From NCBI GenBank assembly GCA_009781235.1, contig WQYM01000002.1, forward strand, positions 1 through 44,181: 44,181 nt of DNA, in the 5' to 3' direction. The stretch comes from Bacillota bacterium (GTDB taxonomy: Bacteria > Bacillota > Clostridia > Christensenellales > Pumilibacteraceae). Positions 9,468 through 43,309 of the stretch are shown piece after piece; positions within the stretch are counted from its first letter, which is position 1, and each line of letters begins with the position of its first letter. Under the pieces are notes generated by a model. It ran no database searches. It had not been told where the DNA came from and saw nothing but the letters and a program-made list of their open reading frames with translations. The position numbers and the translations under genes are program-made.

Positions 9468-9577
9468 CAAATACAAAATATAAAATATAAATTTCGGCTT
9501 TTTTCTTTTCGCAAACTGGGATAACCCACAATCACATAAAACAACAATTTATATTTTATATTTTATATTTTATCCCT
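9468..9577. repeat. Inverted AT-rich heptamer arrays (aaatata / tatattt) in the ssb-rpsF intergenic region
   Basis: aaatacaaaatataaaatataaatt near 9468-9490 and aatttatattttatattttatattttatcc near 9546-9575; 7-bp period, arms reverse complementary. Confidence 0.8.
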
Positions 9578-9580
9578 TTC

Positions 9581-9871
9581 CTACTTTCTCATTACTTTGT
9601 ACCTGACAACATGATCTGCGATTTTCATGCGGCGCTCGAGCTCGGCCGGGAATTCCGGCTTGCCCGTAAACGTCATAAGCACATAAAAGCCCTCGGTTTT
9701 ATAGTCGATGGGATAGGCGAATCTCCGGCTTCCCCACGGCGCGGTTTTTACCACGCTTTCGACCTCGCCGCCGTTTTCCGTGACGAGATTTGAAAATTTT
9801 TCAATCTCGGCCTCGCGAACGGCGTCTTCGAGCTTTGTTTCTAAGATGTACAGCACTTCGTATCGGTTCAT
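9581..9871 (-). CDS. rpsF: 30S ribosomal protein S6
   Basis: MNRYEVLYILETKL...WGSRRFAYPIDYKTEGFYVLMTFTGKPEFPAELERRMKIADHVVRYKVMRK. Confidence 0.95.
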   Translation of the reverse strand: MNRYEVLYILETKLEDAVREAEIEKFSNLVTENGGEVESVVKTAPWGSRRFAYPIDYKTEGFYVLMTFTGKPEFPAELERRMKIADHVVRYKVMRK

Positions 9872-9937
9872 TTAGTTTACCTCCTTTTGGACTTTTGGCC
9901 GCGTCTTTAACTAACCGGCCCGGCGACCCCACATGAT

Positions 9938-9976
9938 AGTGCAATAGTACAGTAGTGCAGTAGTGCAGTAGTTAGC
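9938..9976. repeat. Imperfect 8-bp tandem repeat (agtgcagt)n
   Basis: agtgcaat agtacagt agtgcagt agtgcagt agttagcg upstream of rpsF. Confidence 0.75.
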
Positions 9977-10060
9977 GGAGTAAGGATTTGCCCCGGATTT
10001 TTAAGGGCTAGAATAGTATAGCATTAAAAAACGGGGAAAGCAAGCGATTTAAGTAATTTT

Positions 10061-11524
10061 CTAACTTCTGTAATCGCCATTGATTTTTACGTAGTCATAG
10101 CTTAGGTCGCAACCCCACGCGGAAGCGGCAAACCCGCCTTGGTTAAGATGGACTTCGACAGTAATCTCATTGCATTTTAAAATCTCCAATGCCTTCTCTT
10201 CACTGAATTCAAAGCCGGCGCCGTTTTTACATACTAAAATTTTGCCCGCCGCGCTGACAAAGGCGATGGAAATTTTGGAGATGTCTAATGCCGCGCCCGC
10301 GTACCCGACCGCGCACAAAATGCGGCCCCAGTTGGCGTCGCAGCCGAACAGGGCGGTTTTGACCAGCGGCGAATTTATCACCGCGTCGGCGGCTTTTCTC
10401 GCAGCTTCAATATCCGGCGCACCACAAACGTTGCACTCGACAAGTTTGGTCGCTCCCTCGCCGTCTTTTGCCAGCATCTTGGCAAGGTGCATGCAGAGGG
10501 CGTTGAGAGCGAACTGGAATTTTTCGTACGAATTGGAAGATGCGGGCACCAAATTAGGAATGAGGAATGAGGAATTAGGAATGGCGGATGGATTGGGTTT
10601 GTTGTTCCCCGTAGGGGGCGACCTATTGGGCGCCCCGCCATCACAGGTATTTGCGGTTTGGTGCGGGGCATCCAATGGGCCGCCCCCTACGGGTTCTTTC
10701 GCATGGCCATCCGTATTTGTAATTTGTAATTTGTAATTTGTAGTTTCATCTGCTTCACTGTCCACTGTCCACTGTCCACTGTCCACTATTCTCACGCCGC
10801 TCATCCCGTTCGCCATAATGCTCAGCATATCGTTGGTGGAGGTGTCGCCGTCCACGCTGACGCGGTTAAAGCTGGCGTCCGCCGCCTCTTTTAACATTTT
10901 TGCCAACAACTCGGGCGCGATATCGGCGTCGGTCGTTAAAAACGCAAGCATCGTCGCCATGTTGGGGTTAATCATGCCGCTGCCCTTACAAATGCCGCCG
11001 ATGGTTACGGGACGCCCGCCGACATCGAAGGTAACGGCCGCCTCTTTTTTAACGGTGTCGGTCGTCATGATGGCCTCCGCCGCTAAGCTGCCGCCCTCGG
11101 GGGAGAGCTCGGCGACCAATTGCGTGATTCCCTGTTCAATCGGCTCCAAATTTAGCGATTGGCCGATGACGCCGGTCGAAGCGACAATCACGTCGCAAGG
11201 CTCAATGCCCAGCGCGGCGGCCGTAATAGCGCACATACCCCGCGCTTTTTCCACCCCGTCTGAGACGGCGGTGTTGGCGATGCCGCTGTTGCAGATAAGG
11301 GCGCGTGCGCATCCGTCAGAGAGGTTTTCGCGCGTGACAAAAATGGGCGCCGCCTGCACCAAATTCGTGGTGTATATCGCAGCCGCGCTTGAAGGAGCTT
11401 GCGATACAATCAGCGCCAAGTCTTTTTTGGTTTTGCCCCTACGGATACCGCAGCGGATGCCCGAGGCCTTAAAGCCAAGCGGGGCGCACACGCCGCCGGG
11501 GACGAATTGAATGTGGAGTTCCAT
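10061..11524 (-). CDS. argJ: Bifunctional glutamate N-acetyltransferase/amino-acid acetyltransferase with in-frame repeat-derived insertion
   Basis: KGSGMINPNMATMLAFLTTDADI self-cleavage motif, SVDGDTSTNDM, AKDGEGATKLVE, GCDANWGRILCAVGYAG. Start MELHIQFVPGGVCAPLGF at 11524; the ORF-track extension is repeat DNA. Confidence 0.95.
   Translation of the reverse strand: MELHIQFVPGGVCAPLGFKASGIRCGIRRGKTKKDLALIVSQAPSSAAAIYTTNLVQAAPIFVTRENLSDGCARALICNSGIANTAVSDGVEKARGMCAITAAALGIEPCDVIVASTGVIGQSLNLEPIEQGITQLVAELSPEGGSLAAEAIMTTDTVKKEAAVTFDVGGRPVTIGGICKGSGMINPNMATMLAFLTTDADIAPELLAKMLKEAADASFNRVSVDGDTSTNDMLSIMANGMSGVRIVDSGQWTVDSEADETTNYKLQITNTDGHAKEPVGGGPLDAPHQTANTCDGGAPNRSPPTGNNKPNPSAIPNSSFLIPNLVPASSNSYEKFQFALNALCMHLAKMLAKDGEGATKLVECNVCGAPDIEAARKAADAVINSPLVKTALFGCDANWGRILCAVGYAGAALDISKISIAFVSAAGKILVCKNGAGFEFSEEKALEILKCNEITVEVHLNQGGFAASAWGCDLSYDYVKINGDYRS
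10548..10792. repeat. Composite repeat block inside argJ (three heptamer arrays and a 13-bp GTAGGGG inverted repeat)
   Basis: taggaat/gaggaat array near 10553-10583, cccgtagggggcg (10608-10620) with cgccccctacggg (10681-10693), (aatttgt)n near 10715-10740, (tccactg)n near 10758-10788. Encodes VDSGQWTVDS...NYKLQITN...PTGNNKPNPSAIPNSSFLIPN. Confidence 0.9.
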
Positions 11525-11559
11525 AGAAAATTCCTTTATAACGAGGGATAAATGCTTAT

Positions 11560-11720
11560 CAACGAATAACGAATAACGAATAGTGAATAGCGAATAGCGA
11601 GGGATAAATGTTTTATGGTTCAAAAAATTCGTTCTCTTGTTCCACGCGCTCTCCTTTGCATGATTACAAACAAATCCTTCCGATGCTATTCGCTATTCGC
11701 TATTCGCTATTCGCTATTCG
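11560..11720. repeat. Inverted pair of heptamer arrays (aacgaat/agcgaat)n and (gctattc)n between argJ and thrC
   Basis: aacgaataacgaataacgaatagtgaatagcgaatagcg near 11571-11610 and gctattc x5 at 11685-11720; reverse-complementary arms. Confidence 0.92.
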
Positions 11721-13441
11721 TTTTTAACATATTCCAGCACCGCCGCCCGCACCTCGCGCTTCTCTAAAACGCCGATGTGGCGTTTTTTGAGGCTGAAGAG
11801 CTCGCTAAGGGCGTCCGGAATCGGCAGCGCGGTGATTTCCTCCAAAAGCTTTAGGTTTTTTTGCTCCGAGGGGAGAGGATCCTCGCCGAGCGCGACAAGC
11901 ACGTCTTTGACAAACTTATAGGGGCTGGCGGTGGAAAGGATGACGGTTTTAGTCCCGGAATCCTCAGGGTTTTCGGCCAAATATTCCGCGTACACCGCGA
12001 GTGCCACGGAGGTGTGGGGGTCGGCGATGTAGCCGTATTCGTCAAAGGCGTCGGATAGCGCGGTTCGGCAGGTTTCCTCGTCGGCGTACCCACCCCAAAA
12101 TATCTTCCCGAGCTCAGAAAGCTCGTCCGGCGTAATGTCGTAACGGCCGCTCTTTTTGAGCGCGGCCATGCGCTCCGCCGTTAAAACATCGTCGCGGCCG
12201 GACAGCTCAAACACCAGCCGCTCTAAGTTGGAGCTGATGAGAATATCCATCGACGGGCTTGCCGTGCGGTAAAATTCGCGGTTGGCACAGTACTGCCCGC
12301 CGCGGATAAAGTCGGTTAAAACGTTATTGCGGTTAGAGGCGCAAATCAGCTTATTGACGGGCAAGCCCATTCTAAGCGCGTAATACCCCGCCAAAATGTT
12401 GCCAAAGTTACCCGTCGGCACGCAGAAATTGATTTTATCGCCCATCGCGATTTGTCCGCCGTTGAATAAATCCGCGTACGCCGAAAAATAATAGACGATT
12501 TGCGGTAGCAGACGGCCGAAATTAATCGAGTTTGCGGAGGAAAGCGCGACGCCGTAGGAAGCAAGCTCCGCCGCCACGTCCGCGTCGGCAAAAATCGCTT
12601 TAACGGCATTTTGCGCGTCGTCAAAGTTGCCCTTGATGCCAAATACCTTCACGTTCCCGCCCCGGGCAGTTTGCATTTGCAGCTTTTGGAGATCCGAAAC
12701 GCCGTCCTCGGGGTACAGCACAATTACCCTGACCCCCGGCACGTCCTTAAAGCCCTCGAGCGCCGCCTTGCCCGTATCGCCGGATGTGGCCACGAGGATA
12801 AGGGTGTCTAGGGAGTAGTCGGGACTCGGGACTCGGGGCTCGGGACTCGTGTCCGAGGTATCAGGGCACAGGGCACAAGGCACAGATAACGGATGAAGCA
12901 TATCGTCTTCACCTGTGCCTTGTGCCCTGATACCTGTGCCCTCGTTTCCTGACCCCTGACCCCTGACCCCTGACCCCTCGGTTTCGTCCCCATTCCCTGA
13001 TCTCTGACCCTGCAGCACGGCTTTCGAGCCCGTCAACAAATACGGCATCAACGTGAGCGCGATGTCCTTAAACGCGTGCGTCGGCCCGTGCCATAATTCG
13101 AGCAGATACATGTTCCCGTCTACCTTAACCAGCGGCGCGGGGTCGCTGTCCTCGAAGAGAGCGTAGGCTTTTTCACAAAATATTGTCAGGGGGACGGTGG
13201 TGTTGACAACATTGTCAACACCACCGTCCCCCTGACAATATATTAATTCGGGCAAAAACTTTGCGCAAATAAACGCGGCGCGTCCGGCGTAATCCAGCGC
13301 GCAAAAATGCAAAAACTCCGCCTCGGCGATTTGCGGAAATTCGCCCGGCACAAATAATCCGCCCTCGGGCGAAATACCTTGCACAATCGCCTCGGAACCC
13401 GAGACGGCTTTATTTTTATTACGTGTGGAAATGTATTTCAT
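11714..13441 (-). CDS. thrC: Threonine synthase with two in-frame repeat-derived insertions
   Basis: MKYISTRN, LELWHGPTHAFKDIALTLMPYLLTGS, LVATSGDTGKAALEGF, NSINFGRLLPQIVYYFSAYADL, CVPTGNFGNILAGYYA. Start at 13441. Confidence 0.95.
   Translation of the reverse strand: MKYISTRNKNKAVSGSEAIVQGISPEGGLFVPGEFPQIAEAEFLHFCALDYAGRAAFICAKFLPELIYCQGDGGVDNVVNTTVPLTIFCEKAYALFEDSDPAPLVKVDGNMYLLELWHGPTHAFKDIALTLMPYLLTGSKAVLQGQRSGNGDETEGSGVRGQGSGNEGTGIRAQGTGEDDMLHPLSVPCALCPDTSDTSPEPRVPSPDYSLDTLILVATSGDTGKAALEGFKDVPGVRVIVLYPEDGVSDLQKLQMQTARGGNVKVFGIKGNFDDAQNAVKAIFADADVAAELASYGVALSSANSINFGRLLPQIVYYFSAYADLFNGGQIAMGDKINFCVPTGNFGNILAGYYALRMGLPVNKLICASNRNNVLTDFIRGGQYCANREFYRTASPSMDILISSNLERLVFELSGRDDVLTAERMAALKKSGRYDITPDELSELGKIFWGGYADEETCRTALSDAFDEYGYIADPHTSVALAVYAEYLAENPEDSGTKTVILSTASPYKFVKDVLVALGEDPLPSEQKNLKLLEEITALPIPDALSELFSLKKRHIGVLEKREVRAAVLEYVKNE
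12818..13010. repeat. Four different heptamer arrays inside thrC
   Basis: gggactc n (12820-12850), cagggca n (12862-12885), ctgtgcc n (12912-12940), ctgaccc n (12949-12978). Encodes QRSGNGDETEGSGVRGQGSGNEGTGIRAQGTG...EPRVPSPDYS. Confidence 0.92.
13180..13241. repeat. Perfect 62-bp palindrome (30-bp arms, 2-nt spacer) inside thrC
   Basis: atattgtcagggggacggtggtgttgacaa-ca-ttgtcaacaccaccgtccccctgacaatat, arms 13180-13209 and 13212-13241. Confidence 0.97.
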
Positions 13442-20088: not shown

Positions 20089-21954
20089 ATGTTAAACGAA
20101 AGAACCGGAATCAGCCGCAGCCGTTTGTTGGGGGCGCCGAAGAAAAAGCGCGCGTGGGAAATCGACTTTTTGCGCGGGCTCTGCATTTTCCTCGTCGTGA
20201 TGGACCACTCGTTTCTCGATTTTTGGAGCATCGTGCCCGAAGCGCTTAATTGGGACAGCCACGGCCACTGGTTTTTTGAAAGCATGGAAGACATTACGTA
20301 CGGGTATTGGTTTTCGTCCATCCGAATGGATTTGGTGCGCCCGCTCGTCGTTTTTACGTTTTTGTTTTTAAGCGGAATCTCCGGCGCGTTCAGCCGCTCC
20401 AACCGCGACCGCTTTTTTAAGCTGGCGGCCGCCGCTTCCGTTGTTACGCTGGTCACGTATTTTGTGAGCATGTTTATGGGGGCTACCGACGGCCGGAGCC
20501 TTATCATCGCGTTCGGCATCCTGCACATCATGGCGCTGAACGTGCTGGTCTACATGCTGGTAAAAAAGATTTTCCCGCATCATGCGTTTTATTTGGTATT
20601 GGGCGCGGCGCTGTTGTTTTGTGGCTTGGCAATCCCCGGGGGCAGCCAAATGGAGCTGGTTCCGCTCACCTTATCGCAGCTTTGGCCGTGGGTGCTTATT
20701 TGCGTACTGTTTATACTTTACCCGGTGCGCAAAATGGTGCAAAAAAACTTAGCAAAAAATAAACCGGAGCCCGGCACCGCACTGGCGATAAAATCGGTAA
20801 CGGCGGCGGGATTGAGCGCGATTGTGCTTATTTTTGTGCTCGGGTTTGCGTTTTTGTTCCCCGAAGCCGCGCTCGCAAAACCCGTCGGCGCGAATGAGCT
20901 GGGGCAGTTTTTAAAAATCATCATCGGCACCGGGCGCTACGGCTCGGACTACTACGGGCTGCTCCCCTACACCGGCGTGTTTTTAATCGGCGCATCGGTC
21001 GGCGAGGTGTTTTACAAAGATAAAAAATCAAAAATCCCCGTGTTGTCCGAAAAGCGGATGGGCGCCGTTGGCCTTGCCGTTGCCGGCGCTCTGCTCGGCT
21101 TTACGGCCGGCGCAATCATCAGTATTTTTGAAGGCGCCCCCGCGTTCCCGTGGCTGAGCCTGAGCTTTGGCGGCGCGGCTGGGCTTGCGCTGTACGGGGC
21201 GGGCGTACTAAAGGAAAAAAACAAGGACGTTTTAGGCCTTTTAGTCGCCGCATTCGTGTCGGCCGCGCTGTGCGGCGCCGCGCACGGGATTGCTTTTAAG
21301 CCCTCGGGGTGGGCGCTGATGTTTGCCGCCGATGTATTCTTTGCGTTTTTCGGCATCGGCTTGATTTCGATGCGCGGAAAAAAGAGGTTCGGCGCGGCGG
21401 CGCTCGCCGTGCCCCTCATCCACTTTTGCTTGGCGATTTTCAGCCTGCCGATCCGGGGCTTTATCATCGGAGCCGGGGTCGGCGTGCTGCTGCTTGGGAT
21501 TTGTTTGCTCCCCTCGCGCCGGGCCCGGGTGTACGGGATTGCGGCTTTGGTTGCATCTGTGGCTTCGCTATTCCTTATGATACTCGGGCTTTGGATTGTG
21601 GATATGCGCGCCAGGATTCTTGTGAGTTTGATATGGGGCGCAGGCCTCGGCCTATTGAGCTTGGCGACAGGGTTTGTAGTGCGGGAACTAAAAAAGAAGC
21701 GCGAATTTAGGGATTCGGGAGTCAGATCCGTAGGGGCGGATGGTAATCCGCCCGCATCCGTAGGGGCGGATGGTAATCCGCCCGCATCCGTAGGGGCGGA
21801 TGGCAATCCATCCGGCAAAAACCGCCCGTTCTTTTGGCACAGCGCAATCTCCTTCGTCGGCCGCAATGCCATTTGGGTATACCTGATTCATCAGGTGGTG
21901 GTACTGGTGGTTGTGTTGCTGTCGGCGATGGCCGCGGGATATCGGTTTTTCTAA
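20089..21954 (+). CDS. Multi-TM acyltransferase (DUF1624 / heparan-alpha-glucosaminide N-acetyltransferase-like)
   Basis: RAWEIDFLRGLCIFLVVMDHSFLDFW N-terminal motif and many TM segments; contains three tandem SVGADGNPPA units. Confidence 0.75.
   Translation: MLNERTGISRSRLLGAPKKKRAWEIDFLRGLCIFLVVMDHSFLDFWSIVPEALNWDSHGHWFFESMEDITYGYWFSSIRMDLVRPLVVFTFLFLSGISGAFSRSNRDRFFKLAAAASVVTLVTYFVSMFMGATDGRSLIIAFGILHIMALNVLVYMLVKKIFPHHAFYLVLGAALLFCGLAIPGGSQMELVPLTLSQLWPWVLICVLFILYPVRKMVQKNLAKNKPEPGTALAIKSVTAAGLSAIVLIFVLGFAFLFPEAALAKPVGANELGQFLKIIIGTGRYGSDYYGLLPYTGVFLIGASVGEVFYKDKKSKIPVLSEKRMGAVGLAVAGALLGFTAGAIISIFEGAPAFPWLSLSFGGAAGLALYGAGVLKEKNKDVLGLLVAAFVSAALCGAAHGIAFKPSGWALMFAADVFFAFFGIGLISMRGKKRFGAAALAVPLIHFCLAIFSLPIRGFIIGAGVGVLLLGICLLPSRRARVYGIAALVASVASLFLMILGLWIVDMRARILVSLIWGAGLGLLSLATGFVVRELKKKREFRDSGVRSVGADGNPPASVGADGNPPASVGADGNPSGKNRPFFWHSAISFVGRNAIWVYLIHQVVVLVVVLLSAMAAGYRFF
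21726..21815. repeat. Three tandem 30-bp palindromic units in the acyltransferase gene
   Basis: atccgtaggggcggatggtaatccgcccgc x3 (third copy diverged); each contains GGGCGGAT-ggta-ATCCGCCC; 30 bp = 10 aa. Confidence 0.97.
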
Positions 21955-21982: not shown

Positions 21983-24880
21983 ATGCCGCTCTCTTGGGAT
22001 GAAATTCAAGCAAACGCCGTCGCGTTCTCCAAACGCTGGAAGGACGCGCGCCGCGAACACGCCGAAAAACAACCCTTTTTGCTGGGATTTTTTAGCGTAT
22101 TCGGCATTATCGACCCCCTCGCGCAGGGCGGCTCGTTTGAATACGAGGTGCGCAAAAGCGGCGCGTCCGTCAATTGGATTGACTATTTTTGGCCAAAGCA
22201 AATCGCAATTGAGATGAAAACGCGCGGCAAAAGCTTGGGCGACGCGTACACGCAGCTAAAGGGCTATATGGACAGGCTGCCGCCCGAAGACATTCCCGAC
22301 TTATGGATGGTCAGCGACTTTGATTCCTTTCAGGTGTGGCGGCATTCCACCAAAGAAAAACTCGCCTTTAAACTCAAAGATTTGCGCAAGTTCATCAAGC
22401 GCTTTGCCTCTATCGCGGGCTACGACACCGAGCGCGTTCGCGAAGACCAAATCGAAGTCAACGTCAAAGCCGCCGAGAAAATGGCAAAATTGCACGACGC
22501 GCTAAAGGGCAGCGGCTACGACGGCCACGATTTGGAAGTGTACTTGGTGCGTTTGCTCTTTTGCCTGTTTGCGGGCGACACCGGCATTTTCCCCAAGGGC
22601 AATTTTTATTATTACATCCATGATTCGCGCGAGGACGGCTCCGACCTTTCGCACCGCATTTCCGACCTGTTTGAAGTCTTAAATATGCCGCCCGAAACCC
22701 GCGCCAAAAAAACGCTGCTCTCGGATGAGCTGAAAGCCTTTCGCTACATTAACGGCGGGCTGTTCGAGAAAATCCTGCCCAAAGCCGACTTCGACGCAAA
22801 AATGCGCAAAACTCTCTTAGAGTGCCGCGAATTTGACTGGAGCCGCATCAGCCCCGCCATTTTCGGCGCGATGTTCCAAGGCGTGATGGACGCGACCAAA
22901 CGCCGCGAGATGGGCGCGCACTACACCAGCGAGGAAAATATTCTAAAGCTGATTAACCCGCTTTTTTTAGATGAGCTGTGGCGCGAGTTCGAGCGCGTAA
23001 AAACCGACCCCGCTGCCCTCTCACGCTTTCACGACAAGATTGCGCGCCTAAAATTCCTCGACCCTGCGTGCGGCTGCGGAAACTTTTTGATTATCACCTA
23101 CCGCGAGCTGCGCCTGTTGGAGCTTGAAATTCTGCGTTTTAAGACCGACAACCGCCAGCTTATTTTCGACATTTCGTCCCTGCTAAAAGTCAGTGTGGAG
23201 CAATTTTACGGCATCGAGTACGAGGACTTCCCCTGCCAAATCGCGCAAGTGGGCATGTGGCTTGTCGACCACCAGCTCAACCTGCGCGCCTCGGAGCAAT
23301 TCGGCACATATTATGCACGGTTGCCCCTCACCCAGAGCGCCACCATCGTGCACGGCAACGCCCTGCGGATTGATTGGGAGAGCGTGGTGCCGAAAGAAGA
23401 ATTAAGTTACATACTGGGCAACCCGCCGTTTGTGGGGTACTCCAACCAAAACGACGAGCAAAAGGCGGATATGCTGTCGGTGTATGTGGATGCGAGCAGC
23501 AAACCGTTCAAGAACGCGGGCAAGATTGATTACGTCGCGGCGTGGTATTACAAGGCGGCTAAGTATTTGCAGGGCACGCCCATCCGCGCGGCGTTTGTAT
23601 CCACCAATTCCATCACGCAGGGCGAGCAGGTTGCCGCCGTGTGGAAGCCGCTTTTTGACCTCTTTGGCATTCGCATCGATTTTGGTTACCGCACCTTTAA
23701 GTGGAGCAACGAAGCCAAAGGCAAGGCGGCGGTGCATTGCGTGATTGTCGGGTTTTCGTGGGATGCCGCTTCCGGACATTCCACACCGCAAATTGCCGTG
23801 GACATTTCCTCCGGGTATCAAACACCAAAATTCGTAGGGGACGCCGCCCCCGGGCGTCCCGCACCTTATGAAAATCCGCACCCCGAAAGCGGCGCGGGAC
23901 GCCCGAGGGCGGCGTCCCCTACGAATCATTATGCAGCCGGCGCGGGTTTCCACAACGAAAAAATCATCTACGACGGGGCGGAAAAAATAAGGGCGAAAAA
24001 TATCAATCCCTACCTTGTGGACGCGCCAAATATTTTTATCGAGAGCCGAACCCAGCCTGTTTCTAATGTGCCAAAAATGATTTCCGGAAACAGACCGACA
24101 GACGATGGACATTTAATTATTGAAAATGAGGATTTGGAAGCGTTTATTAATGCGGATCCGTTAGCTGAAAAGCATATAAAGCGCTTCATGATGGGGTATG
24201 AATTTATTAACAACGTAAAACGGTATTGTTTATGGCTTATCGGCGTTTCGCCTGCTGAATTAAGAAAAATGCCGGAAGTGATGAAACGTGTTGCTGCCTG
24301 CAAAGAAGCGCGCCTAAACTCGCCGGATGAAGGTAGACATCGGCTAGCCGATACTCCCATGCTATTTAGAGAACAAATTGCACCCGAATATTATCTTGCT
24401 ATTCCCAAGGTATCGTCTGAAAGAAGGCGTTATATCCCGATAGGCTACATGGACAAGAATACGATAGCGGGGGATAAACTTTTTATAGTTGCAGATGCCA
24501 CCCTTTTTCACTTTGGGATTTTAACATCTAATATGCATATGGCGTGGATGAGAGCCGTTTGCGGGCGTTTAAAAAGTGATTACAGTTATTCAATAAATAT
24601 TGTCTACAACAACTTCCCGTGGCCGGACGTAACAGACGAGCAAAAATCCCTAATCTCGACCCTCGCACAAGCCGTCCTCGACGCCCGCGCTCAATTCCCC
24701 GACTCCAGCCTCGCCGACCTCTACGACCCCCTCGCCATGCCCCCGGTTCTCCTTAAAGCCCACCAATCCCTCGACCGCGCCGTGATGAAACTCTACAACT
24801 TCCCCACCAAAGACTTCACCGAACCCCAATGTGTCGCCGCTTTGATGGAAAAGTATCAAAAACTTATAGGAGAAAAATAA
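21983..24880 (+). CDS. MmeI-like type IIL/IIG restriction-modification fusion enzyme
   Basis: N-terminal PD-(D/E)XK-like PKQIAIEMKTRGKSLGDAYTQLKGYM, methyltransferase motifs LDPACGCGNFLIITYREL and NPPFVGYSNQ, C-terminal TRD and helical region. Start MPLSWDEIQAN at 21983. Confidence 0.9.
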   Translation: MPLSWDEIQANAVAFSKRWKDARREHAEKQPFLLGFFSVFGIIDPLAQGGSFEYEVRKSGASVNWIDYFWPKQIAIEMKTRGKSLGDAYTQLKGYMDRLPPEDIPDLWMVSDFDSFQVWRHSTKEKLAFKLKDLRKFIKRFASIAGYDTERVREDQIEVNVKAAEKMAKLHDALKGSGYDGHDLEVYLVRLLFCLFAGDTGIFPKGNFYYYIHDSREDGSDLSHRISDLFEVLNMPPETRAKKTLLSDELKAFRYINGGLFEKILPKADFDAKMRKTLLECREFDWSRISPAIFGAMFQGVMDATKRREMGAHYTSEENILKLINPLFLDELWREFERVKTDPAALSRFHDKIARLKFLDPACGCGNFLIITYRELRLLELEILRFKTDNRQLIFDISSLLKVSVEQFYGIEYEDFPCQIAQVGMWLVDHQLNLRASEQFGTYYARLPLTQSATIVHGNALRIDWESVVPKEELSYILGNPPFVGYSNQNDEQKADMLSVYVDASSKPFKNAGKIDYVAAWYYKAAKYLQGTPIRAAFVSTNSITQGEQVAAVWKPLFDLFGIRIDFGYRTFKWSNEAKGKAAVHCVIVGFSWDAASGHSTPQIAVDISSGYQTPKFVGDAAPGRPAPYENPHPESGAGRPRAASPTNHYAAGAGFHNEKIIYDGAEKIRAKNINPYLVDAPNIFIESRTQPVSNVPKMISGNRPTDDGHLIIENEDLEAFINADPLAEKHIKRFMMGYEFINNVKRYCLWLIGVSPAELRKMPEVMKRVAACKEARLNSPDEGRHRLADTPMLFREQIAPEYYLAIPKVSSERRRYIPIGYMDKNTIAGDKLFIVADATLFHFGILTSNMHMAWMRAVCGRLKSDYSYSINIVYNNFPWPDVTDEQKSLISTLAQAVLDARAQFPDSSLADLYDPLAMPPVLLKAHQSLDRAVMKLYNFPTKDFTEPQCVAALMEKYQKLIGEK
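23830..23926. repeat. Long inverted repeat inside the MmeI-like gene
   Basis: attcgtaggggacgccgcccccgggcgtcccgc (23830-23862) and gcgggacgcccgagggcggcgtcccctacgaat (23894-23926); 32/33 complementary. Confidence 0.97.
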
Positions 24881-26091: not shown

Positions 26092-26216
26092 CCACCCGTA
26101 GGGGCGACGGCGTGCCTCGCCCAAAAATGCCTGTCATCCGCACGTGTTAGGTATGCCGTGTGCGGCAGCATTCCCGTGTGTCATTGGGCGAGGCACGCCG
26201 TCGCCCCTACGGGTGG
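26092..26216. repeat. Intergenic long inverted repeat (32-bp perfect arms, 61-bp loop)
   Basis: ccacccgtaggggcgacggcgtgcctcgccca (26092-26123) and its exact reverse complement (26185-26216). Confidence 0.97.
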
Positions 26217-36618: not shown

Positions 36619-36694
36619 TTCTGTTATCTGTTATCTTTTATCTTTTATCTGTTATCTTTTTTTCTGTTATCTTTTATCTTTTATCTGTTATCTT
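36619..36694. repeat. Heptamer array (ctgttat/cttttat)n upstream of the LolD-like gene
   Basis: ctgttatctgttatcttttatcttttatctgttatctttttttctgttatcttttatcttttatctgttatcttc. Confidence 0.92.
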
Positions 36695-38933: not shown

Positions 38934-38958
38934 ACAAATCTAAGGAGTGAAATTAATC

Positions 38959-40590
38959 ATGGGAAAGAATCGTAACCGCTTTGCCGTCGCCTTTTTGGCA
39001 ATGGCGCTGACCCTTGCCCTCCTATTTTCCGCCGCCTGCGACGCAGGCGCCGGCAAAAAGACGGACTTCTCCAAGTACGCGGGCACGTATTATGCCTACA
39101 ACGCCGGAGGCGTTAAACAGGAGCATACGTTCTACCAGCTAAAAAACGACGGCAAGTGGACCCGCGTTGAAGCCGGAAACCCGGTAAAATCGGGCTCTTA
39201 TTCCGTATCGGGCGGAAAAATCACGCTGACGCCCTCGTCCGGCGCGGCAGAAACGGGCTCGGTGACCTCCGGCGGCATCCTTTCGCTTACCGTAAACGGC
39301 GCTTCGGTGGTGTACTACGCGGACAAATCGACCTCTAAGCCGACGCCCGATAATCCCGTAATACCGGATCCGAATAATCCGGATCCAAACAATCCCGACA
39401 AGCCGGGCGACCCGGTTAAGCCGCCGTCCGACCCCGCGCTAAAGGAGGAACCGGGCGACTTTAACTGGACGCTTTCCGCCGTGGAAGCCTCGGGCGCGAG
39501 CCCGATCACCCAGCAGCTCAAAATTGTGCTCGAATCGGCGGCAGAGCTTGACCCGGACGGCATTACCGTAGGCGGCGCGGCGGACGCAAGGTTTACGATT
39601 GATATGCTGACCGGCGAAATCGCCGCAAGCTCGGGGATGGTCACCGAAAGCCCCGCCACCTATTTAATCCCGATTACCGCAAATTACACCGGCGACGCGT
39701 TTGTAAGAGTTAATAAAGGCGACGAAAAAGGCGGGGTCAAAAAGGTCGCGGTGACCGGCAAATTCACGTTGCCGGAAAAAACGCAGCCGCTTAACCACAA
39801 GGGCAAGCCTGAAGCGTACACGGGAAAAGTGTTTATCGACGATAAATATCCCGAGCAATTGCCCGACGCAAACCGTTCGGCAAGCCGAGGGGGCTTGCTT
39901 GCCCCGATCGGAATCCCCGCGCCGGATCAGGTAAACGGGCAAAAAATTCCCGGCAAGGTCGTTTGCGGCTATTATGATGTCGGGGGCGTGGGCGTCACGT
40001 TCCAAGACGGCGGACGCAACGAGGGAACGGACGTGCTCCAGGCGAGTCAGGGCTACCGGGGCACGTATTTCGGGGATTTCCGGGGCGGCAACCCGTCGGT
40101 CGATACCAGCTTTTTAAAAAGCCAATGGCGCAACGGGCAGATGAACCGCGCGAGCGCCGACATCGTGGACTTCCACCGTTATAACAGCTATTTTATTCCG
40201 GACGAATGGGAAAACACCCCCTATGTCGGCTGGACGGGCTCGGGCGAGTGGTTTAAGATGACCGTGGATATCGAACAAACAGCGATTTACGAAATACGCC
40301 TCTTGCACTCCTGCCAGCCGGCGTCGGCAAACTTTACGCTGGATTTTGACGTCGAACGCACCTCCGTTACGGTAGCAAATCCCGTCGATCCGGACACCCG
40401 GCTCGCCGTTACGCTCTCTAGCACCAGCAAGGGCAGCCAAGACGCAACCGGCTGGCGGCAAGGCTACCACCACTGGAATTATTGCGTGGTCGGCTATATG
40501 TACCTAACCGAGGGGCAGTCCGTGATGACAATGCGCCTCGGCACCGGCGGCCCGAATTACAGCTTTTTTGACTTTAAGGCGGTAGGGTAA
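38959..40590 (+). CDS. Lipoprotein with lipocalin-like N-terminal domain, Pro/Asp linker and CBM6-like C-terminal domain
   Basis: Lipobox LLFSAAC; linker PNNPDPNNPDKPGDP; GQKIPGKVVCGYYDVGGVGVTFQDGGRN...YVGWTGSGEWFKMTVDIEQTAIYEIRLLHS. Confidence 0.8.
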   Translation: MGKNRNRFAVAFLAMALTLALLFSAACDAGAGKKTDFSKYAGTYYAYNAGGVKQEHTFYQLKNDGKWTRVEAGNPVKSGSYSVSGGKITLTPSSGAAETGSVTSGGILSLTVNGASVVYYADKSTSKPTPDNPVIPDPNNPDPNNPDKPGDPVKPPSDPALKEEPGDFNWTLSAVEASGASPITQQLKIVLESAAELDPDGITVGGAADARFTIDMLTGEIAASSGMVTESPATYLIPITANYTGDAFVRVNKGDEKGGVKKVAVTGKFTLPEKTQPLNHKGKPEAYTGKVFIDDKYPEQLPDANRSASRGGLLAPIGIPAPDQVNGQKIPGKVVCGYYDVGGVGVTFQDGGRNEGTDVLQASQGYRGTYFGDFRGGNPSVDTSFLKSQWRNGQMNRASADIVDFHRYNSYFIPDEWENTPYVGWTGSGEWFKMTVDIEQTAIYEIRLLHSCQPASANFTLDFDVERTSVTVANPVDPDTRLAVTLSSTSKGSQDATGWRQGYHHWNYCVVGYMYLTEGQSVMTMRLGTGGPNYSFFDFKAVG

Positions 40591-40607
40591 GGAGAGTATT
40601 GTACTCA

Positions 40608-40770
40608 ATCAGTTTAGAAATAGAAACTATTTCTAAATGTGCCGCTCACGCGGCACACGCGGTTTTTACAAAAACCGCGCTGATTACCGTTTATTCGGCA
40701 TCCGAAAGGCCTTAAGGCCTTTTGCCGCACTATGTGCGGCTCTTGAATTAGTTTCTAATTCAAGACTGAT
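40608..40770. repeat. Run of contiguous hairpins closed by an outer stem (multibranch element)
   Basis: Outer ATCAGT (40608-40613)/ACTGAT (40765-40770); inside, perfect hairpins 40613-40637, 40638-40657, 40658-40679, 40694-40706, 40705-40722, 40724-40740 and 40741-40765. Confidence 0.92.
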
Positions 40771-40792
40771 GCGCTATATAGCAACCCCATAA

Positions 40793-41671: not shown

Positions 41672-43309
41672 ATGAAAAAACACAAACTTGTCTTGTCCCT
41701 GCTGTTGGCGGCGGCACTGATATGCGCACCGATTCTGTTTGCGTCGTGCGACGGCGCAAAGACGGATTACGCAAAGTATGCGGGCAAATATTATGCCTAC
41801 GCCGACACGACGAAATCCGGCGACACCTACTACGAGTTAAAAGCAAACGGCAAGTGGACCGCTTTCGCCGCGGGCGAAAGCGCGGGGTCGGGCACGTTTA
41901 CCGTAAAGAGCGGAACCATTACGCTTACCCCTGCGTCGGGTACGGCGATTACCGGCACCGTCAACACCAAAGGCGTGTTGAATCTTAACGCAGGCGGCGC
42001 CCAAGTGGCATATTATACGGATGCCTCGCCCTCTAAGCCGACGCCGGGCGAAACGACAAATCCGGGTGGGACAACGAATCCGGGCGTACCGGGCGTAACC
42101 GAGGAGCCCGGCGACTTTAACTGGACGCTTTCCGCCGTCGTAGGCCAAGAAAGCGCCGCGGTTACAACGCAGTTAAAAATCGTGCTCGAATCGGCGACGG
42201 AGCTCGGCCCCGACGGAATCACCGTATACGGCGCGGCGGACGCGGGCTTTAAAATTGACCTCTTAACCGGAAAAATTGCCGCGGACTCGGGTATGGTAAC
42301 AGAGAGCGCAACCGCGTATTTAGTTCCGATTACCGCCAATTACACAGGCAACGCGATGGTTAAGCTTGTAGCGGGCGGGGTGAACGGCGGCATAAAAAAA
42401 GTCGCGGTAACCGGCAAATTCACGTTGCCAGACAAGCAATCAAAGCCGCTCAACTATAAGGCTAAGCCCGCAGGCTATACGGGCACGCCGTTCGTTGACG
42501 ACACCTATCCCGACACCGCGCATCTGGTGCCCTACGCAATCGACGAGGCAACGGGAGAAAAATCGGCAGACCCGGACGTAAATCTCGCCGCGGCACGAAA
42601 TTTTGCCAATAACTATATGCCGGGGCCGCGCCCCGTAAATCCGCTCGGGCAATCGATTCCCGGCGCCGTAAAGCCCGCCTTTTACGACGAGGGAGGAATG
42701 AATGTCGGATTTAGCCAGGCGGGCAGGGGAACCAATCCCGCCGGAAACGCGAATCACGGCGATATGTCGCTGTACCGGGCTAAATTCCGCAGCGGCAGCC
42801 AACGACCGGTGACCAGCTTTATCAAAGGGTTTTATTATACAAGCAAGCAAAACGACGGCGAAAAATACGGGCTTTTGGCGAGGGACAACAACGATATCGT
42901 CGATATGCACGCGTACGGCATGGTGTTTATTCCCGAAGCATGGATGAACACGCTGTATTGCGGGTGGACGGCGGCAAATCAATGGTGGCGCATGACCGTC
43001 AACGTCGAAACCACCGGAATTTACGAGGTAAGGTTTTTCTATTCGATGCAGGACGGCAAGCCGCTTCAATTCTCCTTGGACTTTGACCCCGAGCAAAACG
43101 TCGCCGAGGACGTCGCCGCCGACGCCAAAGTGGATTGCGAGGTTCCCTCCACCAACAAACCCGACCCGACGGGCTGGCGTCAGGCGCATCACTGGAATTA
43201 TACCGTCGTCGCATACATGTACCTAGAAAAAGGGCAAAGCGTTTTAACGACGCGCATTGTAAACGGCGGCCCCAACGTCTGCCGCTTTGATTTTAATTTA
43301 ATCGGTTAA
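41672..43309 (+). CDS. Paralogous lipoprotein with CBM6-like C-terminal domain
   Basis: Lipobox ILFASC; shares domain plan with 38959-40590 (FNWTLSAV, VAVTGKFTLP, CGWTAANQWWRMTVNVETTGIYEVRF, TGWRQAHHWNYTVVAYMYLEKGQSV). Confidence 0.85.
   Translation: MKKHKLVLSLLLAAALICAPILFASCDGAKTDYAKYAGKYYAYADTTKSGDTYYELKANGKWTAFAAGESAGSGTFTVKSGTITLTPASGTAITGTVNTKGVLNLNAGGAQVAYYTDASPSKPTPGETTNPGGTTNPGVPGVTEEPGDFNWTLSAVVGQESAAVTTQLKIVLESATELGPDGITVYGAADAGFKIDLLTGKIAADSGMVTESATAYLVPITANYTGNAMVKLVAGGVNGGIKKVAVTGKFTLPDKQSKPLNYKAKPAGYTGTPFVDDTYPDTAHLVPYAIDEATGEKSADPDVNLAAARNFANNYMPGPRPVNPLGQSIPGAVKPAFYDEGGMNVGFSQAGRGTNPAGNANHGDMSLYRAKFRSGSQRPVTSFIKGFYYTSKQNDGEKYGLLARDNNDIVDMHAYGMVFIPEAWMNTLYCGWTAANQWWRMTVNVETTGIYEVRFFYSMQDGKPLQFSLDFDPEQNVAEDVAADAKVDCEVPSTNKPDPTGWRQAHHWNYTVVAYMYLEKGQSVLTTRIVNGGPNVCRFDFNLIG

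Follow-up and report, generated by a model that had tools for sequence, protein, structure and literature searches.

Most described bacterial MITEs fold as a single long hairpin. Bacterial MITEs are shorter than 200 bp, encode no protein, and carry terminal inverted repeats (TIRs), TA at their ends and stable stem loops (PMC2229807). RUP of Streptococcus pneumoniae, Correia/NEMIS and ERIC likewise share a length below 200 bp, lack of protein, TIRs, TA at or near the ends, an intergenic position and strong folding, and each forms one long end-to-end stem loop (PMC2229807). A different layout is found in the CIR elements of Caulobacter and Brucella, in which two structured arms, each a single long stem loop with a GANTC motif, are joined by a linker (PMC2229807). 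Hairpins left by mobile elements can also lie behind genes, as reported for Borrelia, where stem loops derived from IS200/IS605 mark the 3' ends of lipoprotein genes (PMC2775950).

Here, we describe an element within a 44,181-nucleotide stretch of DNA (the window) that corresponds to contig C2 of a fragmented, 87% complete MAG (2.53 Mb in 247 contigs) of a Bacillota gut bacterium from the family Pumilibacteraceae. The element is most probably a MITE-like, non-autonomous mobile DNA repeat of ~178 bp rather than a free-standing RNA gene. It is shorter than ~200 bp, encodes no protein, has terminal inverted repeats, and occurs at scattered sites in copies that share their boundaries but not their flanks; the published MITE features given above are found in it, and a target-site duplication was not proved. 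It shares the features listed above with RUP, Correia/NEMIS and ERIC, but differs from them in comprising two cloverleaves of three hairpins each, in its low copy number, and in that no partner IS was found. The two arms and linker recall the layout of CIR, whereas here the arms are closed three-hairpin units that are inverted relatives of each other. As in Borrelia, the window copy follows a lipoprotein-like gene; the Borrelia stem loops are single, small and derived from a known IS, whereas no TnpA or IS ends were identified here in searches made with the terminal sequences.

Layout and folding of the element

The preliminary description placed seven hairpins at 40608-40770, closed by ATCAGT/ACTGAT and independent of coding. 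These coordinates and the closing sequences are exact, and none of the listed ORFs of at least 60 aa covers the hairpin region; six of the hairpins are strong, while the remaining one, in the middle (~40680-40704), is weak and better read as the junction CTGAT-linker-ATCCG. The element itself runs slightly further, its limits of 40602-40779 (178 bp, non-coding) being set by sequence common to other copies. It starts 12 nt past the stop of a 547-aa ORF, ends ~13 nt upstream of the ATG of a 215-aa ORF, and has the same sense as these two co-oriented genes. Its parts follow one another in the order TACTCA-ATCAG-(H1 H2 H3)-CTGAT-15-nt linker-ATCCG-(H5 H6 H7)-CTGAT-GCGCTATAT (Table 1). Tandem paralogous lipoprotein-like genes occupy positions 38947-40590, 41672-43309 and from 43322 of the window, the first of them without a Pfam match.

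Table 1. Parts of the window copy, with positions in the window
Feature	Position	Strand	Remarks
Left outer end TACTCA	40602-40607	+	part of terminal motif TATAnnnnATCAG; reads TGTACTCA in the window
Basis of the left-end boundary			recurs at C4, C103, C114, C142, C143 and C181 (TACTTA on C181), with unrelated flanks
Cloverleaf arm A	40608-40684	+	ATCAG + H1 + H2 + H3 + CTGAT
Hairpin H1	40613-40637	+	11 bp, loop AAA
Hairpin H2	40638-40657	+	8 bp, loop TCAC
Hairpin H3	40658-40679	+	9 bp
Linker joining the two arms	40685-40699	+	15 nt; CTGAT-linker-ATCAG in the C4 copy
Cloverleaf arm B, inverted relative of arm A	40700-40770	-	ATCAG + H7 + H6 + H5 + CGGAT
Hairpin H5	40705-40722	+	7-9 bp
Hairpin H6	40724-40740	+	7 bp
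Hairpin H7	40741-40765	+	11 bp, loop TTT; inverted relative of H1
Right outer end GCGCTATAT	40771-40779	+	also present in the copies on C4 and C103; the half copy on C4 has one change

Folding, which had been proposed as a check, bore out the structure: the segment 40600-40780 reached -81.2 kcal/mol, compared with -39.4 +/- 3.5 kcal/mol for 200 dinucleotide shuffles (z = -11.9), none of which was as stable (0/200). Arm A folded alone forms one closed three-hairpin unit of -38.1 kcal/mol, with stems of 5, 11, 8 and 9 bp and no spacers. On the minus strand, arm B repeats this arrangement, with a hairpin of 11 bp (loop AAA), one formed by GCCGC/GCGGC and a third one; its closing stem contains one A.G mismatch in the window and is intact in the full copy on contig C4. 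The outer parts of the two arms (40608-40633 and 40745-40770) form an inverted repeat of 26 nt with 85% complementarity. We favour a parse of the element into two closed three-hairpin units over one of seven hairpins in a single ring; the two parses have similar energies in the full sequence, and either may form. A covariance model built from four arms matched arm A with 91.1 bits and arm B, on the minus strand, with 75.5 bits, both arms being themselves part of the model. A chain-of-hairpins score discriminated poorly, with 1 of 30 Markov controls coming near arm A, and the argument therefore rests on the folding z-score and on the copies.

Copies in the genome and their insertion sites

A count of copies, also among the checks proposed earlier, revealed a second full copy as well as shorter and half copies elsewhere in the genome. 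The second full copy (C4:22054-22232) is 89% identical to that in the window, lies between unrelated flanks and has both outer ends; no other full copy is present. The remainder comprises a decayed right half (C4:25983-26059), a minimal copy on C103 (TACTCAATCAGTTTAGAAACTGATGCGCTATAT), a unit common to minimal copies on C143 and C181, whose left boundary reads TACTTAATCA on C181, and solo left ends on C142 and C114. Derived copies have the left boundary TACTCAATCA in common, at which most short or half copies begin; they vary in the number of hairpins held, and outside the common stretches their flanks differ. The unit at C143:4398-4487 and C181:751-840 is a 90-bp repeat of 96% identity that extends from TACTCAATCA past the usual right end to GATTTGACAARTGTTTTTT. 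Further TACTCAATCA sites in the same genome (C15, C54, C60, C91, C136, C189 and C190) were judged to be chance occurrences or another repeat, and that on C171 is doubtful as a copy. C60:4115 and C91:1256 have ~40 bp in common upstream of TACTCAATCACAACTATCCC, followed by heptamer-like runs, and belong to a different repeat. On C142, a phage-type tyrosine recombinase gene (278-1530; Phage_integrase, E 1.5e-14) has its 3' end ~130 bp from the solo left end TACTCAATCAGTTTAGAAATA; in this single instance, an integrative element may have inserted into or next to a repeat copy.

Three options had been offered for the nature of the element, namely a structured RNA, a recombination or ssDNA recognition site, and a compound repeat. 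The last comes nearest, in the sense of a non-coding element dispersed in the genome. Read more narrowly, as a tandem or compound repeat that arose on the spot when local hairpins were duplicated and that does not move as a unit, it would fit the inverted relationship of arms A and B and the differing hairpin numbers among copies, but it is contradicted by the presence of the whole 178-bp unit, with both outer ends, at an unrelated locus, which makes it extremely unlikely.

At the insertion sites, where gene names (corA, HPr and dnaE) are taken from a reading of the translations, the full copy on C4 separates corA from a 178-aa gene and runs antisense to the two, and the minimal copy on C103 occupies the space between HPr and dnaE, also in antisense. 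Copies in opposite orientations and next to unrelated genes favour a dispersed DNA unit over a strand-specific RNA. In a paralogous corA-like pair on C228, the stop codon is separated from the next ATG by 4 nt, with no element in between; this empty site belongs to a paralogue that has diverged (61% protein identity) and does not represent an allele. Synteny around HPr-dnaE was rejected as a source of an empty site: HPr is not beside dnaE in one other genome (G001), the gap is short and holds no element in a second (G003), and both are too diverged. TA/TATA occurs near both ends of the element, where element and target bases are not separable, and no clean target-site duplication was proved, the only empty site being the diverged paralogue on C228.

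Preserved pairing and the RNA reading

The alignment of the window and C4 copies contains 15 substitutions and 5 gap columns. Of the base pairs, 59 are unchanged, three carry changes at both positions, none at a single position, and one is broken. When the same substitutions were placed at random, the fold weakened to -57.9 +/- 5.9 kcal/mol (a cost of ~23 kcal/mol), and in 0 of 300 trials was the observed -82.8 kcal/mol reached. These figures are strong evidence that pairing is preserved as sequence changes between the two full copies. The compensatory changes that had been suggested as a test are thus present; DNA-level correction of inverted repeats would also yield them, as template-switch correction brings inverted repeats that are imperfect closer to perfection (PMC7202029). 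The evidence for selection of the pairing as RNA is weak, since only two full copies exist and template-switch correction gives the same pattern.

A structured RNA, whether a small RNA or an mRNA element that acts in cis on stability, attenuation or processing between the lipoprotein and membrane-protein genes, would be in keeping with the very stable fold, the double-sided pair changes, the intergenic site within a co-oriented gene pair and one weak terminator-like match inside the element. Against it stand the opposite orientations of the two full copies relative to transcription, the unrelated neighbours of the copies, the lack of a promoter-like match near the element, and the fact that double-changed pairs without one-sided changes suit DNA-level correction at least as well. 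Database searches weakened this option further. When the covariance model was run against 74 family genomes, it recovered the four input arms and the C4 half copy (E 0.005) from the genome itself, and nothing convincing from the 73 others, where a palindrome in G014 was the best match, and a marginal one (E 0.064); none of the other genomes searched contained the full structure. Rfam at gathering score gave no match for the element (only tRNA elsewhere), in agreement with the earlier failure to recognise a known family, and permissive thresholds added only a sub-threshold IMES-4 match (22.4 bits vs 48). A structured RNA is accordingly an improbable reading.

Terminal repeats and possible modes of movement

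Both ends of the window element carry the terminal repeat TATAnnnnATCAGTYTWGAAATAG as inverted copies of one unit; the left and right outer ends differ (CTCA vs GYGC), so that the repeat is imperfect in four variable outer bases. These ends (TATAGCGCATCAGTCTTGAATTAG and TGTACTCAATCAGTTTAGAAATAG) have the same motif as the ends of short MITEs in G017, a related termite-gut genome, whose terminal repeat reads TATAnnnnATCAGTYTWGAAAT. The latter include a ~104-bp element (G017:C33:10228-10331) with terminal repeats TATAGTTAATCAGTYKTGAAATAGAAA and two ~165-bp elements with TACTCAAACAGTTTAGAAATTGAAC ends. They look like ordinary MITEs, being plain long inverted repeats with nearly symmetric ends and no cloverleaves, and the cloverleaf arms of the window element may represent an elaboration of the terminal repeat common to both.

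The TACTCAANCAGT sites of G002 and those on two contigs of G017 (C1 and C37) look like chance matches, and candidate ends in G168, G139 and G174 have no close inverted partner or visible transposase nearby. A degenerate 19-mer gave 22 matches in GTDB contigs, with ~16 estimated by chance; three of the 22 are in the termite-gut genome named above (WRAY01, of the same family). Exact-pattern scans of viral contigs gave one match to this 19-mer and none to the other patterns, and blastn against plasmids and phages returned no match to the element. An autonomous element with these ends was not found in end searches of up to 397 genomes of the order and of GTDB contigs, the MAG itself being fragmented and 87% complete.

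We infer that the element transposes. The most likely mover would be a transposase acting in trans and recognising the terminal repeats; since the ends are rich in TA, it may be an enzyme that targets TA, of the kind proposed for RUP (PMC2229807) and IS630-Spn1. Near-perfect arm pairing could be kept by template-switch correction of inverted repeats, by selection of the folded form, or by both. Where it has inserted between co-oriented genes, the element may act on read-through mRNA as a putative side effect. That the three-hairpin cloverleaf itself, as ssDNA or a cruciform, is the recognition target of the transposase, with pairing rather than sequence selected at each end, is a tentative proposal that we consider unlikely.

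IS200/IS605-type ends are asymmetric, bear hairpins at both ends and produce no target duplication. The element resembles them in its hairpins at both ends, asymmetric outer ends and lack of a proven target duplication, and the left end on C142 adjoins a region that contains a gene for a phage-type integrase; the folded cloverleaf could accordingly be read as a structure on which an HUH (IS200/IS605-type) transposase or a tyrosine recombinase acts, that is, as the ssDNA or recombination site named among the earlier options. However, each end here consists of three hairpins and a closing stem instead of one hairpin, inspection by eye, without a reference element, revealed no convincing pairing of guide and cleavage tetranucleotides at a hairpin foot, the simpler elements of G017 are just long inverted repeats whose ends are almost symmetric, and C142 offers a single instance, in which an integrative element may have inserted into a copy. 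This option, which is conceivable at the level of mechanism and lacks direct support, is very unlikely.

For the MITE-like repeat, two inverted cloverleaves with double-change pairing could be used to test selection for a branched DNA shape in bacterial transposition substrates, the alternative being that template-switch correction alone keeps the palindromes perfect. If neither holds, the element would be one more local repeat family.

The window also contains other repeats. G+C-rich palindromic repeats with the core CGTAGGGG are located at 10608-10693, 21726-21809, 23830-23926 and 26092-26216, one of them being a 30-bp tandem array, and apparently form a separate dispersed family. An inverted repeat of 33 bp at 13177-13244 is near-perfect and has a centre of 2 nt (AAAATATTGTCAGGGGGACGGTGGTGTTGACAA). 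Short tandem arrays are numerous at 9548-12978 and 36620-36693; they have a period of 7 bp but differ in their units (TTTATAT, AATGAGG, ATTTGTA, CACTGTC, GCTATTC, TCGGGAC, CCTGACC and TCTGTTA).
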